NCBI GenBank assembly: GCA_031279875.1
Contig: JAITHS010000152.1
Span: forward strand, 1 to 10,734
From: Tannerella sp.
GTDB taxonomy: Bacteria > Bacteroidota > Bacteroidia > Bacteroidales > Tannerellaceae
Length of the DNA: 10,734 bases
Direction of reading: 5' to 3'
How positions within the stretch are numbered: the stretch's first letter is position 1; every line of letters begins with the position of its first letter. This document shows positions 2,700 to 10,140 of the stretch, one piece after another. The notes under the pieces are model-generated. The model did no database searches, had not been told where the DNA came from, and saw only the letters and a program-made list of their open reading frames with translations. Made by a program: the position numbers and the translations under genes.

Positions 2700-5600
2700 A
2701 TGAAACAGAAAACATTCATTCTAACAATTTTGCTGATAACGACTTCGCTCATTTCAGCACAGACAAAAGACAAAGTCCTCGACATCCTGAAATCGGAGTT
2801 AGACAGGAACTTTGCGAAACTGAAAACCGAACCTGTTCCGGCATACTACATTGCTTATAGGGTTCATGACGTTCAAAACCGGCGTCTTGCAGTATCATTC
2901 TCCAATTTGACGGTCAACAGCGAGAGCCACAACCGTATCGGAAATGTTGACGTGCGCGTCGGCGACTATAAAATGGACAACACGCGCGAAATCAAAGGCT
3001 TCAGCGGTGGCATGATGTTCTCCGAAATGGATTTCATGCAGCTAATTATGAACGACAATTCCGATGCGCTCAAAACAGCGTTTTGGGAGAAGACAGACGC
3101 TGTTTTCAAAACAGCCATCCAGCGGTATGCCGGCGTTCAGGCAAACACCAAATCAACAGTCGAATCGGAAGACAAATCAGATGATTTTTCACAGGCGACG
3201 CCGGAAAAATACGTTGAAGCAGTTATTCCATTCAAAAACTTCAAATTCAATGAATCCGAATGGATTGCGAAATTAAAGAGTTATGGGGCTGTTTTTGTTG
3301 ATAACAAAGACATTACTAACTGCGACATCAATTTTGATATAGATTTGACCCGCAGATATTTTGTTAGCAGCGAAGGCACTATGATTGCCGCCAACAAGAG
3401 TTCGTGCAGGATACAAATTTCGGCCGTTGCCATAGCCGAAGACGGAATGGAACTGCCTCTGTATAAGAACTATTTCGCTAATGATTTGAAAGACTTGCCC
3501 TCGGATGCGGAAATTCTTAAAGACGTCGCCGCTATCAGCACGATGCTTTCGGCTTTGAAGCAAGCCCCGACAGCAGAATCCTACTCCGGTCCGGCAATTA
3601 TGACATCACAGGCGGCGGGAGTGTTTTTCCACGAGATTTTTGGACACAGAATAGAAGGCTCGCGATTGAAGAAAGAAAATGACGCTCAAACATTTAAAAA
3701 GAAAGTCGGACAGCAGGTTTTACCGTCCGACATGGCCGTTTATTTCGACCCTTCATTGAAGAAATATGGAAACCTATGGCTCAATGGTTCGTATATATTT
3801 GATGATGAGGGTGTTAGAGGTAAAAGAGTAGATGTAGTTAAGAACGGCATTCTGTCTGATTTCCTGATGTGTCGCACCCCGATCGACAACTTCCCTCATT
3901 CCAACGGACATGGGCGGGCATCCATCGACAGAGAACCCGTGTCCAGACAGTCGAATATGGTTATTGAATCATCCAAACCGAAGCCTGTCAGCGAATTACG
4001 GACACTTTTGCTTGATGAACTGAAGCAAACCGGAAAGGAGTACGGGTACGTATTTGACATAGTATCAGGAGGTTTCACTCAAACGGGCAGATATAATCCT
4101 AACGCCTTCAACGTGCAACCGTTAGTTGTTTATAAAATCTTCACCGATGGTCGTCCCGACGAACTCGTGCGCGGGGTGGATGTAGTAGGTACGCCACTGT
4201 CGATTTTCGCACAGATAATAGCCTGCGGCAACGACCATTCGGTTTTCAACGGTTTCTGCGGTGCCGAATCAGGCACTATTCCGGTATCATGTGCCTCTCC
4301 GTCGCTTTTCGTCAAAGTCGTTGAAACACAGAAAAAAGCCAAGACGTCGAACTTGCCTCCGATGCTGCCGCGACCGGTTCTTACATCATCTAATTCATCA
4401 GAAAACATCCTTGACGTTATCAAAACAGAAGTTGACCGCAACATTGCATCACTTAAAAGGGACAATCTACAAAAGCCTTTCTTCATCAGTTATGCAGTTG
4501 CCGACGTCAGGGAAATCAATGTTAATGCACAAAGCGGAGCGCTGCGAACTAATAATGTCAGTAAAACCAGAACTGCCCAGTCGAATTTGTATGTCGGTGA
4601 TTATCAGCGTACTAATGCGAGCGTTAGTTTAAGCGGGCGCAATATCAGCATGGATAATACCGGCATTGCGGTCAATATCTGGCGAGATCTGGATAATCTC
4701 TACAAGCGTGCGGCCGAATCTTATGAAACGAAGTTGTCGGCTATTGCGCAAAAGCAACTTGACCCTGCCGAAGCAGCGTTGCCCGACATGGAACAGACTG
4801 CGCCGACAGAGATGATTTTGCCACCCGAAGAAACATACGACAACCGCGAGTACTGGGCTGATTATGTGAGTAAAGTGTCGGAAGTTCTCAATCAATATCG
4901 CGACTTGATACTGCCGTCGGTAAGTGCGACCGTAACAAATATGATGGTGTACGAATATAACACCGAAGGCACACGTATTGCAATACCGACAACTTTTCAC
5001 GTTGTCGGCGCAAATATTGAGGCTATGACTGACGACGGACAGCGGTTGTCGAGTCGCGTGTCGTTTATTCATCGTAATTTTAAAGATATGCCTGATGTTA
5101 AGCAGTTTACAGATACATGTCGGGCGACGGCAGAGAAATTGCTGGCTATCATAGCGGCAACTAAAATAGAAGACACATATACCGGTCCTGTATTGTTTGA
5201 AAATCAGGCTGTTGCTCACATATTCAGGAATTATTTTCTTAACAATTATTTAATTGCCGCCCGCAAACCGGCTAATTCTATGTTCGGTGGAGGCAATGAT
5301 TTGGAGATGAAAAAAGACCGAAAAGTTATTTCAAGAAGCCTTACAGTCAAGGCATTATCAGGAATGAAAACATATAACGGACATCAACTCGAAGGATATT
5401 ATCCGGTTGATATGGATGGCGTTGTGCCTGCCGACGAGTTAACGCTTATCGAAAATGGTATTCTGCGAAATATGCTCGTCGGACGCTCTCCTACTCTAAA
5501 ATTTGCGCACTCGACAGGTCATAGAATACCTTCTACTTATTCGATTACCGCACCCGGCAATGCGTTGCTGAGTAGCACTAACACTATTTCATCGACTGAA

Positions 5601-5954
5601 TTAAAGCAGAAACTTCTTGATAAAGCTAAAGAAGAAGATCTCGAATATGCCTATATAGTAAGAAATCATGAAAATAATGAGGTTTACAGAATCTATGTTG
5701 CCGACGGTCGTGAAGAATTAGTCAGAAATGTTATTTTTCCTGACCTCAACATAAAGGCTTTCAACAAAATACTTGGCGCATCGTCGGAAGAGATGCTGTT
5801 TAATTATTATTCAGGACGTCCTTTTTCAATCGTAGCGCCTGCAGGACTGCTGTTTGAGGAGTTAGACGTGTCCCGAAATAACAATATCAACGCTCGGAAA
5901 CCGTTTATAGTAGAGAAACCACTACCGGTTACCGAGTCTGTCAAAGCGCATTAA
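2700..5954 (+). CDS. Exported tandem TldD/PmbA-family metallopeptidase, active plus degenerate half
   Basis: A single 1084-residue chain contains two TldD-like copies (about 22-545 and 567-1084); E. coli TldD is about 480 residues. A clear Sec signal (MKQKTFILTILLITTSLISA) predicts export, unlike the cytoplasmic E. coli proteins. The first half has the zinc-site motif HEIFGH (His311, Glu312, His316) and the later family cysteine in FCGAESG (Cys520), so it can be an active metallopeptidase. The second half repeats the plan (VLDILKSELDRN against ILDVIKTEVDRN; NGIL at 382 and 919; DGR..ELVR at 483 and 1002). At the aligned metal site it has Arg843, Asn844 and Asn848, and no cysteine in NYYSGRP. 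It should therefore be catalytically dead, as TldE is in the E. coli TldD/TldE peptidase. A short Pro-rich linker (PPMLPRP) joins the halves. The substrate is unknown; peptide processing in the envelope is an inference. Confidence 0.9.
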   Translation: MKQKTFILTILLITTSLISAQTKDKVLDILKSELDRNFAKLKTEPVPAYYIAYRVHDVQNRRLAVSFSNLTVNSESHNRIGNVDVRVGDYKMDNTREIKGFSGGMMFSEMDFMQLIMNDNSDALKTAFWEKTDAVFKTAIQRYAGVQANTKSTVESEDKSDDFSQATPEKYVEAVIPFKNFKFNESEWIAKLKSYGAVFVDNKDITNCDINFDIDLTRRYFVSSEGTMIAANKSSCRIQISAVAIAEDGMELPLYKNYFANDLKDLPSDAEILKDVAAISTMLSALKQAPTAESYSGPAIMTSQAAGVFFHEIFGHRIEGSRLKKENDAQTFKKKVGQQVLPSDMAVYFDPSLKKYGNLWLNGSYIFDDEGVRGKRVDVVKNGILSDFLMCRTPIDNFPHSNGHGRASIDREPVSRQSNMVIESSKPKPVSELRTLLLDELKQTGKEYGYVFDIVSGGFTQTGRYNPNAFNVQPLVVYKIFTDGRPDELVRGVDVVGTPLSIFAQIIACGNDHSVFNGFCGAESGTIPVSCASPSLFVKVVETQKKAKTSNLPPMLPRPVLTSSNSSENILDVIKTEVDRNIASLKRDNLQKPFFISYAVADVREINVNAQSGALRTNNVSKTRTAQSNLYVGDYQRTNASVSLSGRNISMDNTGIAVNIWRDLDNLYKRAAESYETKLSAIAQKQLDPAEAALPDMEQTAPTEMILPPEETYDNREYWADYVSKVSEVLNQYRDLILPSVSATVTNMMVYEYNTEGTRIAIPTTFHVVGANIEAMTDDGQRLSSRVSFIHRNFKDMPDVKQFTDTCRATAEKLLAIIAATKIEDTYTGPVLFENQAVAHIFRNYFLNNYLIAARKPANSMFGGGNDLEMKKDRKVISRSLTVKALSGMKTYNGHQLEGYYPVDMDGVVPADELTLIENGILRNMLVGRSPTLKFAHSTGHRIPSTYSITAPGNALLSSTNTISSTELKQKLLDKAKEEDLEYAYIVRNHENNEVYRIYVADGREELVRNVIFPDLNIKAFNKILGASSEEMLFNYYSGRPFSIVAPAGLLFEELDVSRNNNINARKPFIVEKPLPVTESVKAH

Positions 5955-5973
5955 TCATTAATAAAATACAATT

Positions 5974-6450
5974 ATGCTTGACATTATAATAATAATTTTT
6001 CTGATGGCGATGGCAATATTTCTGCTGATAGCGGAGATATTTTTGCTGCCCGGCATCACGATAGCAGGGGTAGCGGGAACGCTGTTTGCTATCGGCGGTA
6101 TCGTTTTTGCCTACTCTTGCGGCGCTACGACCGGTAATATCACGCTTTCCGCTTCTGTGGTGGGATTTACGGGCGTGTTTTTGTGGCTGATAAGGTCGAA
6201 TTCGTTCAACAGGGTTTCGCTTAAAACGGACATAGAATCGAAAGTAACATCGCCGCGCGAAATGAACTTGTCGGTTGGCGATGAGGGAGTTACGTTGTCG
6301 CGATTGATGCCAATCGGCAAGGCTCGGTTTGGCAACATAACCGTTGAAGCCAAATCATTAAACGACTTCATTGACGAAAATACTGCGGTGGTAATCGTTA
6401 GTGTCGAAGGATATAATGTGGTTGTTAAAGAATTACAAATTAAGAATTAA
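5974..6450 (+). CDS. NfeD-like membrane protein, short form
   Basis: This 158-residue protein has two to three hydrophobic segments in residues 1-75, beginning at the N-terminus with a run of Ile and Leu and the family-like LAEIF...PG pattern (IAEIFLLPGITIAG). A soluble C-terminal part of about 65 residues (from about 95) matches the small OB-fold domain of NfeD proteins, with VGDEGVTLSRLMPIGKARF followed by alternating beta-type residues. NfeD proteins are partners of flotillin/stomatin-type proteins and are usually encoded next to them, as here with FloA 59 nt downstream. There is no N-terminal serine protease domain, so it is the short class. The start follows the peptidase stop by 19 nt in an A/T-rich leader. 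The last codons (ELQIKN then stop) lie inside a heptanucleotide repeat, so the natural C-terminus may have been altered by that repeat. Confidence 0.87.
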   Translation: MLDIIIIIFLMAMAIFLLIAEIFLLPGITIAGVAGTLFAIGGIVFAYSCGATTGNITLSASVVGFTGVFLWLIRSNSFNRVSLKTDIESKVTSPREMNLSVGDEGVTLSRLMPIGKARFGNITVEAKSLNDFIDENTAVVIVSVEGYNVVVKELQIKN

Positions 6451-6488
6451 AAATTACAAATTACAAATTACAAATTAAGAATTATTAA
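6433..6488 (+). repeat. Heptanucleotide tandem repeat TTAnnAA across the nfeD stop codon
   Basis: Seven consecutive 7-nt units in perfect phase run from 6433 to 6481: TTACAAA, TTAAGAA, TTAAAAA, three further TTACAAA, and TTAAGAA. An eighth unit (TTATTAA) is degenerate. The stop codon of the NfeD-like gene (6448-6450) lies inside the third unit, so the repeat covers the last codons of that gene and most of the gap before floA. No hairpin or coding function is evident. Similar A/T-rich repeats are common between Bacteroidales genes. Confidence 0.85.
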
Positions 6489-7496: not shown

Positions 7497-7500
7497 AGTA

Positions 7501-7535
7501 GTGGTTAGTGGTTAACGGTTAGTGGTTAACGATTA
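7501..7535 (+). repeat. Heptanucleotide tandem repeat GTGGTTA/ACGGTTA before the regulator gene
   Basis: Five 7-nt units in phase fill most of the 49-nt gap between floA and the next gene: GTGGTTA twice, ACGGTTA, GTGGTTA and ACGATTA. The frame of the following gene is open through the last units, and a GTG of the fourth unit (7522) could formally serve as a start. The more likely start is the ATG at 7546, 10 nt beyond the repeat. The sequence of the unit differs from the TTAnnAA repeat 1 kb upstream, but the period is the same. Confidence 0.85.
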
Positions 7536-7545
7536 TGATAACATT

Positions 7546-10140
7546 ATGACAAGAAAGAAACAAACTCTATATATCCTGTTCATTAGCGGCGCGATGTGGA
7601 TAGCCTTTTCATTAAAAGGTTTTTCGCAGGTTTCGAGTTATGGGTTAGAGTTTGTTTCTTTTGAGGCGGTGCAGGAAAAGCGGACAAGTCTGAACCTTAC
7701 GCCGACGAAGCCGTTTTCGTTTCCCGACGGTTTCAAAATGTCGTTCGACCTGATTTGCTATCCGCGTATGGATTACAATTTCGGCTATATATTCCGCATC
7801 ATCGGACAAAACAGTCATTACATTGATTTTCTGATGAATGAAAGTTATTTGCGGATAATAAACTCCGAAGATGAAGTGCCGGTAGAATATCAGGTGAACG
7901 AGTTGATGTCGTTGAAAAAACCTGTCTCCGTGCCGTTCGTCATAATGTTTGACGTCAAAAAAAAGACGGCTAATATCACTGTCGGACGTAAGAATTATTC
8001 TTTTGAAATACCTTATATTAAGGATTTTAAGACCGTTCATATCGTTTTCGGACGCAACGACAAGCCCGACATGCCGACTACCGATGTTCCGAAAGTTACC
8101 ATCAGCGACATCCGCATCAACGACATCAAAGATAAACCGCTATACTATTGGAAATTAGCCGCTCACACAGACAAAGGCGTTTACGATGAATTAAAACAAC
8201 GGTTTGCGAGTGTTGATAACCCTGCGTGGCTGCTCGACAATCATGCACTCTGGAAAAAAAGGCTTGAAATAAGGTCGTGTCTTAATCCCCAAATAGCATA
8301 TAATCATGCTAATAACAGCATTACGATAGCCGACAGGAAAGATTTTCGCATTTACGATACTAAAACATATTCCCTGATATACGACAAACCTGTAACAGGC
8401 AAATTGCAAAGTTATCATGCCAATCAACTGATTTACAACTCTGTTGACAATCGTTGCTATTCATATAATATGGATATTAATCCTGCTAACAGCACAATAA
8501 CATCATTCGACACCTTGACGGCTGACTGGGGCAATGTCAATAAAACGAGCAATTATATCCACTTCCAGCATCATAACAGGGTTTTCGTGCCGTCCGACAC
8601 AAGTTTATATACCTTCAACGGCTACGGTCATCACAAATACAAAAACAGCGTGATGAAATATTCGTTTAACGACCGCCAATGGAGCGAGTTACGTTTTTCG
8701 GGCGACAGGATACATCCCCGTTACATGAGCGCATTTGGGATGATAGACGCACATCGGGCGCTTCTTTTTGGTGGTTACGGCAACGAAACAGGGCTGCAAG
8801 ACCTCTCTCCGCGTAACTATTACGACCTCTACGAGATAGATTTGCGCTCTATGACGTCAAAAAAACTGTGGGAAATAGATTACGTCAAAAGCCCTTTTCT
8901 TGTTGCCAATTCTTTGGTTGCAGATACGGCGTTGAGATGCTTTTATGCGCTTTGCTTTGCTCATCAACAGTTTAATACTACTCTTGCGCTGGTGCGTTTT
9001 TCGATCGACAAGCCCGAATATGAGACCGTTTCGGATGATATACCGTTTTCTTTCAGAGATGTGCTGTCGTATGCCGATTTGTTTCTCAACCGCGAGACAA
9101 ATGAACTTACGGCTGTAACATACACTTCTTCGACTGTCGATTCCATTTCGGTCGTGTCGCTACGGTCGCTTGCCTATCCGCCTATTTCAACAAGCGCTCT
9201 GTTGCAGTTGCCGACGAAATCAGGCAATCATAAAACGCTGTTATTCGTTATTTTAGCCGTCGCGATTGTAGCGGTTATTGTTTTGTTGATGTACAAAAAG
9301 AAGCGTTCGTTAGCGCAATTACCGCCTCAGGAAAGTATTGAAAATGAAGACGATGACGCCGAAGATGCCGACGTTGCGACACAACATGATGTGCCTTTGC
9401 CGCCAAAGCAATCCGTATTTTTCTTCGGCGGTTTCAGGGTAATCGGACGCGAGGGCAAAGACCTTACCGATGAGTTTTCGCCGCTTCTCAAACAATTGTT
9501 CCTGCTTATCCTGCTCAACACTCTCGAAAAAGACAGTAAAGGTATCTCGTCAACGAAACTGAAAGATATTCTGTGGTTTGACAAGAGCGTAGAGAGTGTA
9601 CGTAATAATCGCGGAGTGATGCTTAACCGTATCCGCCGGATTTTTGAGCGCGTCGGCACGGTGTCGATAGAAGGACAAAACTCGTACTGGACAATCCGCC
9701 TGGGCGACGAAATAAAATGCGACTATCGTGATGCGATAATGCTGATCGACAAAATGAAACACTCTACTACCCGTACAAATGCGGATCTGAAACTTCTACT
9801 TTCGCTTGTTTCACGCGGCTATATGTTGCCTAACGTGCAGACAGAGTGGGCAGATACGTTTAAATCGGAGTTTGCCAACAATCTCGTTGACCTGCTGCTC
9901 GAAATAAGCAACGGCAACGACATCAAACTGTCAAACAAAGAGACTGTTAATCTGGCAGATGCGATACTAATCCATGATGTTCTCAACGAAGACGCCATCA
10001 AACTGAAATGTACGGCATTAGTTCGTATGGGCAAGATAGGTTTGGCCAAAACGGTCTTCAATTCCTACGTCAAAGAATACTCCGCGCTGTTTGGCGTCAA
10101 TTACAAAAGCACTTTTGACGAATTAAGAATTAAGAATTAG
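7546..10140 (+). CDS. Transmembrane one-component regulator: LamG-like/Kelch sensor, TM, winged helix, BTAD-like tail
   Basis: From the ATG at 7546 the protein has 864 residues. A Sec signal ends at about FSQ (residue 28). Residues about 30-200 resemble a LamG/concanavalin-like sandwich (FKMSFDLICYPR, FGYIFRIIG). Residues about 240-555 look like a Kelch-type propeller, clearest at HPRYMSAFG and LLFGGYGN (390-413). One transmembrane helix (about 565-582) is followed by KKKR, which places the C-terminus in the cytoplasm. An acidic linker (596-609) leads to a winged helix like those of SARP/OmpR regulators. It starts FFFGGFRVIG (about 625), has KLKDILW (671-677), a basic recognition-type helix with NNRGVMLNRIRRIF (687-700), and a wing ending YWTI. 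The last 135 residues are helical and resemble a BTAD domain. The role inferred is an envelope sensor that binds DNA directly. The GTG at 7522 is rejected as start because it lies in a tandem repeat and weakens the signal peptide. Ligand and targets are unknown. Confidence 0.82.
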   Translation: MTRKKQTLYILFISGAMWIAFSLKGFSQVSSYGLEFVSFEAVQEKRTSLNLTPTKPFSFPDGFKMSFDLICYPRMDYNFGYIFRIIGQNSHYIDFLMNESYLRIINSEDEVPVEYQVNELMSLKKPVSVPFVIMFDVKKKTANITVGRKNYSFEIPYIKDFKTVHIVFGRNDKPDMPTTDVPKVTISDIRINDIKDKPLYYWKLAAHTDKGVYDELKQRFASVDNPAWLLDNHALWKKRLEIRSCLNPQIAYNHANNSITIADRKDFRIYDTKTYSLIYDKPVTGKLQSYHANQLIYNSVDNRCYSYNMDINPANSTITSFDTLTADWGNVNKTSNYIHFQHHNRVFVPSDTSLYTFNGYGHHKYKNSVMKYSFNDRQWSELRFSGDRIHPRYMSAFGMIDAHRALLFGGYGNETGLQDLSPRNYYDLYEIDLRSMTSKKLWEIDYVKSPFLVANSLVADTALRCFYALCFAHQQFNTTLALVRFSIDKPEYETVSDDIPFSFRDVLSYADLFLNRETNELTAVTYTSSTVDSISVVSLRSLAYPPISTSALLQLPTKSGNHKTLLFVILAVAIVAVIVLLMYKKKRSLAQLPPQESIENEDDDAEDADVATQHDVPLPPKQSVFFFGGFRVIGREGKDLTDEFSPLLKQLFLLILLNTLEKDSKGISSTKLKDILWFDKSVESVRNNRGVMLNRIRRIFERVGTVSIEGQNSYWTIRLGDEIKCDYRDAIMLIDKMKHSTTRTNADLKLLLSLVSRGYMLPNVQTEWADTFKSEFANNLVDLLLEISNGNDIKLSNKETVNLADAILIHDVLNEDAIKLKCTALVRMGKIGLAKTVFNSYVKEYSALFGVNYKSTFDELRIKN
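10121..10140 (+). repeat. Short TTAAGAA heptamer repeat at the regulator's 3' end
   Basis: Two complete TTAAGAA units (10123-10136) and a partial third (TTAG) form the last codons and the stop of the regulator gene. They encode ELRIKN before the TAG stop. The unit is the same as two of those at the nfeD-floA junction, 3.6 kb away. Confidence 0.75.

Follow-up and report, generated by a model that had tools for sequence, protein, structure and literature searches.

A likely membrane-bound, SARP-like activator of polysaccharide utilization loci with a periplasmic Kelch propeller in Tannerella sp. and other Bacteroidota

Polysaccharide utilization loci (PULs) decide which glycans Bacteroidota can eat. 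In the hybrid two-component systems (HTCS) of this phylum, the periplasmic sensor is a propeller. ToxR and CadC are membrane-bound one-component regulators in which an OmpR-type winged helix comes first and the sensor last. The SARP-type DNA-binding part, best known from the antibiotic regulators of soil bacteria, recognizes a repeat unit of seven bases. The Bacteroidetes-specific regulator types named in the available portion of PMC3878776 are SusR, HTCS, and ECF/anti-sigma systems, and HTCS and ECF are also named in an excerpt of PMC10766802. The same portion (PMC3878776) describes SusR as PUL-linked and membrane-bound, sensing on the periplasmic side and binding DNA with a cytoplasmic domain, and HTCS as single polypeptides with a periplasmic sensor, found beside SusC/SusD. 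According to sections of PMC10936776, the promoters on which SARPs act contain direct repeats spaced by 11 or 22 bp, of which the 3′ one lies 8 bp from the -10 element; a SARP dimer on its box also holds sigma region 4; and in large SARPs the SARP unit comes first and extra domains stand behind it.

The gene described here lies in a 10,734-nucleotide stretch of Tannerella sp. DNA (the window) and is likely to encode a membrane-bound one-component, SARP-like PUL activator with a periplasmic Kelch propeller and tandem YTAA targets. Its features are as follows.

7546..10140, + strand: regulator gene, 864 aa, with ATG at 7546 and an in-frame GTG at 7522 as a possible alternative start
7546..7629, + strand: signal peptide, about residues 1-28 (helix 2-25 in the model)
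7633..8229, + strand: beta-rich N-domain, residues 30-228, LamG-like only tentatively
8236..9189, + strand: Kelch-type beta-propeller, residues 231-548
9226..9309, + strand: transmembrane helix, residues 561-588, with KKKR at 584-587 (9295-9306)
9310..9405, + strand: acidic, low-confidence linker, residues 589-620 (pLDDT < 50 at 589-616)
9406..9705, + strand: OmpR-type winged helix, residues 621-720, the family's most conserved region
9589..9648, + strand: predicted recognition helix, residues 682-701, inside the winged helix
9706..10134, + strand: helical BTAD-like domain, residues 721-863

A high-confidence structural model of the 864-aa protein comprised a signal peptide, a beta-rich N-domain, a Kelch propeller, a transmembrane helix, a disordered linker, an OmpR-type winged helix, and a helical domain. 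The initial annotation had proposed this order, from signal peptide through propeller and membrane helix to winged helix and BTAD, and the model bears it out; the winged helix that structure prediction was expected to reveal at residues 620-726 was modeled at 621-720. The segment annotated as a LamG-like domain is indeed beta-rich in the model, but its LamG identity is weakly supported: a profile scan matched Laminin_G_3 in 1 of 38 homologue domains, and a sequence search of the PDB with the N-domain returned no match of weight. A single hydrophobic segment occupied the position of the transmembrane helix in 63 of 64 aligned sequences, and lysines and arginines were seen by eye after it. Given the signal peptide in front and the single transmembrane segment, the positive-inside rule, an established principle of topology, places residues 29-560 outside and residues 589-864 inside. 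The proposed topology, with the sensor outside and the winged helix and BTAD inside, thus agrees with the conserved segment, the model, and the fold match described below. No kinase, receiver, or AraC domain was found in a Pfam scan of the 864-aa protein, in line with the claim that it works without a phosphorelay.

In a fold search, the C-terminal unit matched AfsR, a SARP, and EmbR across its whole length, and the match to the DNA-bound AfsR structure was likewise full-length. The SARP-type arrangement, an OmpR-type winged helix followed by a helical BTAD, is therefore present. Within the recognition helix, N687, N688, R689, V691, and R697 were each conserved at 90% or more among 75 aligned sequences. 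SARP sequence profiles, however, barely detected the family. The C-terminal domain of the window protein had no significant match in Pfam or NCBIfam, SARP profiles included, and among 38 homologue domains there were weak matches to PF00486 in five and PF03704 in four, along with weak NCBIfam matches to AfsR in three and BagI/FevR in one. A sequence search of the PDB with the C-terminal profile yielded only SaeR (best E value, 0.066), so that the fold search was needed to uncover the likeness to AfsR and EmbR. In the source annotations, homologues are called "hypothetical protein" or, by JGI, "two-component SAPR family response regulator." This automatic label implies that the SARP-like part had already been recognized there, yet under a two-component name that the Pfam scan of the window protein does not support.

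Homologues numbered 346 proteins at an E value of ≤1e-3, with 40 to 57% identity over 81 to 100% of the length among the 119 matches listed, self excluded. Named genomes, when scanned, yielded 94 relatives; the best 80 of the 94 gave 79 distinct loci, all from organisms with Bacteroidota names. The hosts were Tannerella and its kin from termite guts, Dysgonomonas, and Bacteroides sp. 51 and 519, as well as Algoriphagus, Catalimonadaceae, Flavobacteriaceae, Sphingobacterium, and others. Of 296 genomes spread across the phylum, 6 carried the family at an E value of ≤1e-20, and of 61 genomes of relatives, 16 carried it, with up to four matches each (the window's own genome is included in both counts). 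The family is therefore sparse across the phylum, with local expansion. When 41 genomes were searched with the C-terminal profile, full matches fell in open frames of 843 to 987 aa, short matches were fragments, and no other architecture for the domain was found. Genome G010 was counted as family-bearing on a C-terminal fragment from this search. In three Bacteroides sp. MAGs (L041, L050, and L060) the family gene was in several open pieces, reflecting either a decaying gene or an assembly fault; in L041 and L050 the split gene adjoins SusC. In a diverged relative (L194, 6902-9459) the protein was divided between two neighboring ORFs, one matching residues 19-457 and the other residues 484-860.

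Clustering of the surrounding genes showed that SusC or a glycan-enzyme cluster is present at 63 of 80 family loci. SusC occurred at 39 loci and a glycan-enzyme cluster at 42 (including a "GH99-like" cluster that rests on a sub-threshold Pfam match), while 17 loci, several on short contigs, had neither. The 80 loci comprise L009, L010, and 78 of the 79 named ones; L080, whose family gene was missed by the ORF caller, is absent from this context count, although its bases are included in the 81-locus site counts below, and L001 to L008, which duplicate the window or named loci, were excluded from all counts. By script count, 12 loci had a co-directional SusC no more than 500 bp downstream, and 9 had a divergent one within 1.2 kb; the first figure overlooks reversed loci, among them L009, where SusC also sits downstream. 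Recurrent partners were SusC, SusD, DUF3823, and enzymes such as GH92, GH3, GH95, GH2, and sulfatases. SusD was present at 28 family loci, in about 1.0 Mb of sequence. Ten such genomes contained 531 SusD in 52.2 Mb, or one per 98 kb, a background that would predict about 10 here.

The 22 regulator-SusC intergenic regions, which served as the discovery set, were compared with 200 dinucleotide shuffles. Pairs of YTAA[TCG] were found 23 times at period 11 (shuffle mean, 1.5) and 18 times at period 12 (shuffle mean, 1.7); periods 22, 24, and 7 were raised as well, less strongly (period 7, 8 versus 1.6). A fixed distance from the last repeat to a TAnnTTTG box was first noticed by eye. An excerpt of PMC7366714 identifies this box as the -7 element for the primary sigma factor of Bacteroidota. 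The predicted signature is therefore a run of direct YTAA repeats spaced by 11 or 12 bp, with 15 nt from the start of the last one to the -7 box, and it was scanned as the strict two-repeat pattern YTAA-N7/8-YTAA-N11-TAnnTTTG.

Across all 81 loci (999 kb) there were 31 strict sites, compared with 1 for the reversed pattern. Among 99 combinations of spacings, period 11 with distance 15 gave 11 sites and period 12 with distance 15 gave 20, and no other combination gave more than 3. Four of the 31 sites fall within the 22 discovery loci. The 59 loci outside the discovery set (673 kb) held 27 sites in 21 loci, 25 of them distinct, since L078 and L086 share two site sequences; the reversed pattern again occurred once. 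By our own ORF calls, all 27 were intergenic, and 23 lay between 14 nt inside and 193 nt before a called gene start, with the other 4 near contig ends. The same spacings stood out in this test, with 11 sites for (11, 15), 16 for (12, 15), and at most 3 for any other of the 99 combinations. The distinct period-12 sites number 21, that of the own genome included; upstream of their two repeats a third appears, and one free position in it was A at every one of the 21. Even close to family genes the signature is not always present, as a strict site was found in only 25 of the 81 loci and 56 were without one; in 8 stretches around further, diverged relatives there were 0. At L078 (6626-6725), L082 (6356-6455), and L086 (10784-10883), one intergenic region common to two divergent genes carries an outward-facing site of 11-bp period on each strand.

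The window's own genome, which is 80% complete, contains one family gene. The strict two-repeat pattern occurred there at 3 sites (reversed control, 1), two of which are not before SusC. The third, at C322:1686-1720, stands 83 bp before susC and reads TTAAT-12-TTAAT-12-TTAAT-15-TATCTTTG. The PUL on this contig encodes SusC, SusD, SusE-like DUF5000/DUF4959 proteins, GH43, GH3, a pectate-lyase/GH2 protein, a GDSL lipase, GH43-GH95, and GH92; upstream, on the opposite strand, is a gene for a DUF4143 ATPase. No regulator was found in the 12 stretches scanned, which cover the main ORFs of the 29.7-kb contig. Three-repeat patterns alone did not exceed their controls: the 12-bp version gave 3 strand-wise matches at 2 places in the own genome and was no commoner than its reversed control (also 3), and the 11-bp version gave 0 matches (reversed control, 2). 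The own-genome SusC genes closest to the SusC of L031, which lies beside the relative with 57% identity, are on C367 and C177 and have no site. The susC of C322 ranks 20th of the 88 matches and was rejected as the counterpart of L031 susC; what links the regulator to C322 is consequently only the site and the fact that no regulator was detected there. The orphan regulator in the window and the C322 PUL, which has a family promoter and no regulator detected, fit each other, as one case, and the window copy would then act on this PUL at a distance.

The window contig also encodes proteins for cytochrome c assembly, a TPR protein, and TldD/PmbA-like, NfeD, and FloA proteins, with HisA recognized by eye. 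The 1,084-aa ORF at 2700-5954 appears to join two TldD/PmbA-like halves in a single polypeptide, with Pfam PmbA_TldD_3rd in two stretches, and an A+T-rich tandem repeat (TTAAAAA, period 7/21) lies at 6425-6484, between nfeD and floA. Tandem heptad repeats (TAGTGGT / GGTTAGTGGTTAAC) at 7499-7535 occupy most of the gap of about 50 bp between floA and the regulator gene. With a period of 7 or 14 bp, spacings other than 11 or 12, they were rejected as an operator. An operator site elsewhere in the window was rejected too, as both scans came up empty: there were 0 matches to the three-repeat 12-bp pattern with up to 2 mismatches (1.0 expected by chance) and 0 to the relaxed two-repeat pattern.

This neighborhood allows a different reading, in which the window copy is a membrane-bound one-component transcription factor for a local envelope function with NfeD/FloA or TldD and only the other family members control PULs. 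It would suit the position of the regulator gene directly after floA on the same strand and the lack of a PUL on the copy's 10.7-kb contig, and the own-genome site that speaks for a PUL target is a single case. However, none of the window's other ORFs clustered with any ORF of the other fetched family loci. The partnership with NfeD, FloA, or TldD, for which homologues beside these genes had been proposed as a check, was accordingly rejected. Furthermore, no domain of the family is better conserved than the winged helix, and a PUL promoter with the family signature is present elsewhere in the same genome. We regard a purely local role as unlikely.

A second concern is whether the YTAA/-7 signature belongs to some other PUL regulator, or to PUL promoters generally, with the protein merely traveling with PULs. 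Genome-wide, 77 strict matches were found in 193.8 Mb of 61 relatives, where the reversed pattern was commoner (96), and the pattern was about 78 times denser around family genes (31 in 0.999 Mb). Same-genus genomes with the family had 31 sites (reversed, 18) in 52.3 Mb, and those where the family was not found had 10 (reversed, 12) in 59.8 Mb, a modest difference in site number. These 10 sites, together with the limited share of family loci bearing one, are what a different owner of the signature would explain. Gene labels at the same-genus sites were assigned solely by likeness to ORFs of family loci, and 22 of the 31 sites in family-bearing genomes were examined, the omitted 9 being those that adjoin family genes or lie at C322. 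On this basis, 4 of the 22 stood before SusC and a few more before other family-locus-like genes (GH2 and clusters c14, c15, and c16), whereas none of the 10 sites in genomes without the family stood before a gene resembling any family-locus ORF. In the own genome, moreover, one such site stands in front of a SusC, against 88 SusC-like matches, pieces included, and the geometry of the signature is near that of SARP targets while the protein's own domain has the SARP fold. Ownership by another regulator, or by PUL promoters generally, thus appears improbable. That the cytoplasmic unit is instead a signaling adaptor with a degenerate winged helix and no DNA binding would suit the missing Pfam and NCBIfam matches of the window protein, but the near-invariant recognition-helix residues, the full-length match to DNA-bound AfsR, and the promoter signature leave this reading very little room.

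Under the favored reading, as a SARP-like PUL activator, the protein probably senses something outside the inner membrane and activates sugar-utilization clusters directly from the membrane. The periplasmic Kelch propeller and beta-domain would receive the signal, most likely a glycan fragment or a periplasmic state reporting one, and the single transmembrane helix would pass it inward. The cytoplasmic winged helix and BTAD are predicted to bind the YTAA repeats arrayed in tandem at 11- or 12-bp spacing, and the bound unit, judging from its fold and from the promoter geometry, may recruit RNA polymerase as SARPs do, with polysaccharide utilization loci as the presumed targets of the family. 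DNA binding, activation, and the ligand are thus what we infer. The one-component design of the initial annotation is supported, with no kinase or receiver domain found; its general role as an envelope sensor gives way to the likelier one of a glycan-locus activator. If this reading is true, the family adds a phosphorelay-free route from periplasm to promoter, and its predicted operator is usable at once for listing target loci. It also suggests that SARP-style activation can operate with the unusual Bacteroidota sigma factor.

Compared with known systems, the protein differs from HTCS in the kinase, receiver, and AraC domains that these carry and that were not found in it. It shares with ToxR and CadC the membrane-bound one-component design and the OmpR-type winged helix, but has the opposite domain order in the model and a BTAD besides. 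SusR-like proteins, which we take to be the DUF6377 proteins, have in common with it a periplasmic sensor first, a membrane anchor, a DNA-binding domain last, and PUL linkage; by eye, however, their sensor and C-terminal HTH are different, PF19904 (DUF6377) was not found in the Pfam scan of the window protein, and kinship was rejected at hhalign probabilities of 0.2% (C-terminal) and 3% (full length). The reversed order that had been pointed out therefore holds relative to ToxR and CadC but is not unprecedented in Bacteroidota, SusR being sensor-first according to the portion of PMC3878776 cited above. The combination of a Kelch propeller with a SARP unit was not found in the open-access literature searched. 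Also close are the SARPs, represented by the activator AfsR of Streptomyces, with EmbR of Mycobacterium as a structural relative. Unlike in large SARPs, the SARP unit closes the chain, preceded by the periplasmic propeller and the membrane helix. The predicted sites come close to SARP geometry, as 15 nt start-to-start from the last repeat to the -7 box equals 8 bp if the unit is 7 bp; the 12-bp spacing, commoner here, differs. The fold match and the promoter match are independent of each other, and both point to a SARP mechanism. What is new is not so much the reversed order, already found in SusR, as the joining of a SARP unit to a propeller, the PUL context, and the predicted operator. Collectively, these comparisons incline us to see in the family a further class of Bacteroidota PUL regulators: propeller-sensing, membrane-tethered SARP activators that use a near-Streptomyces promoter geometry, with a 12-bp variant, at the phylum's own sigma factor.
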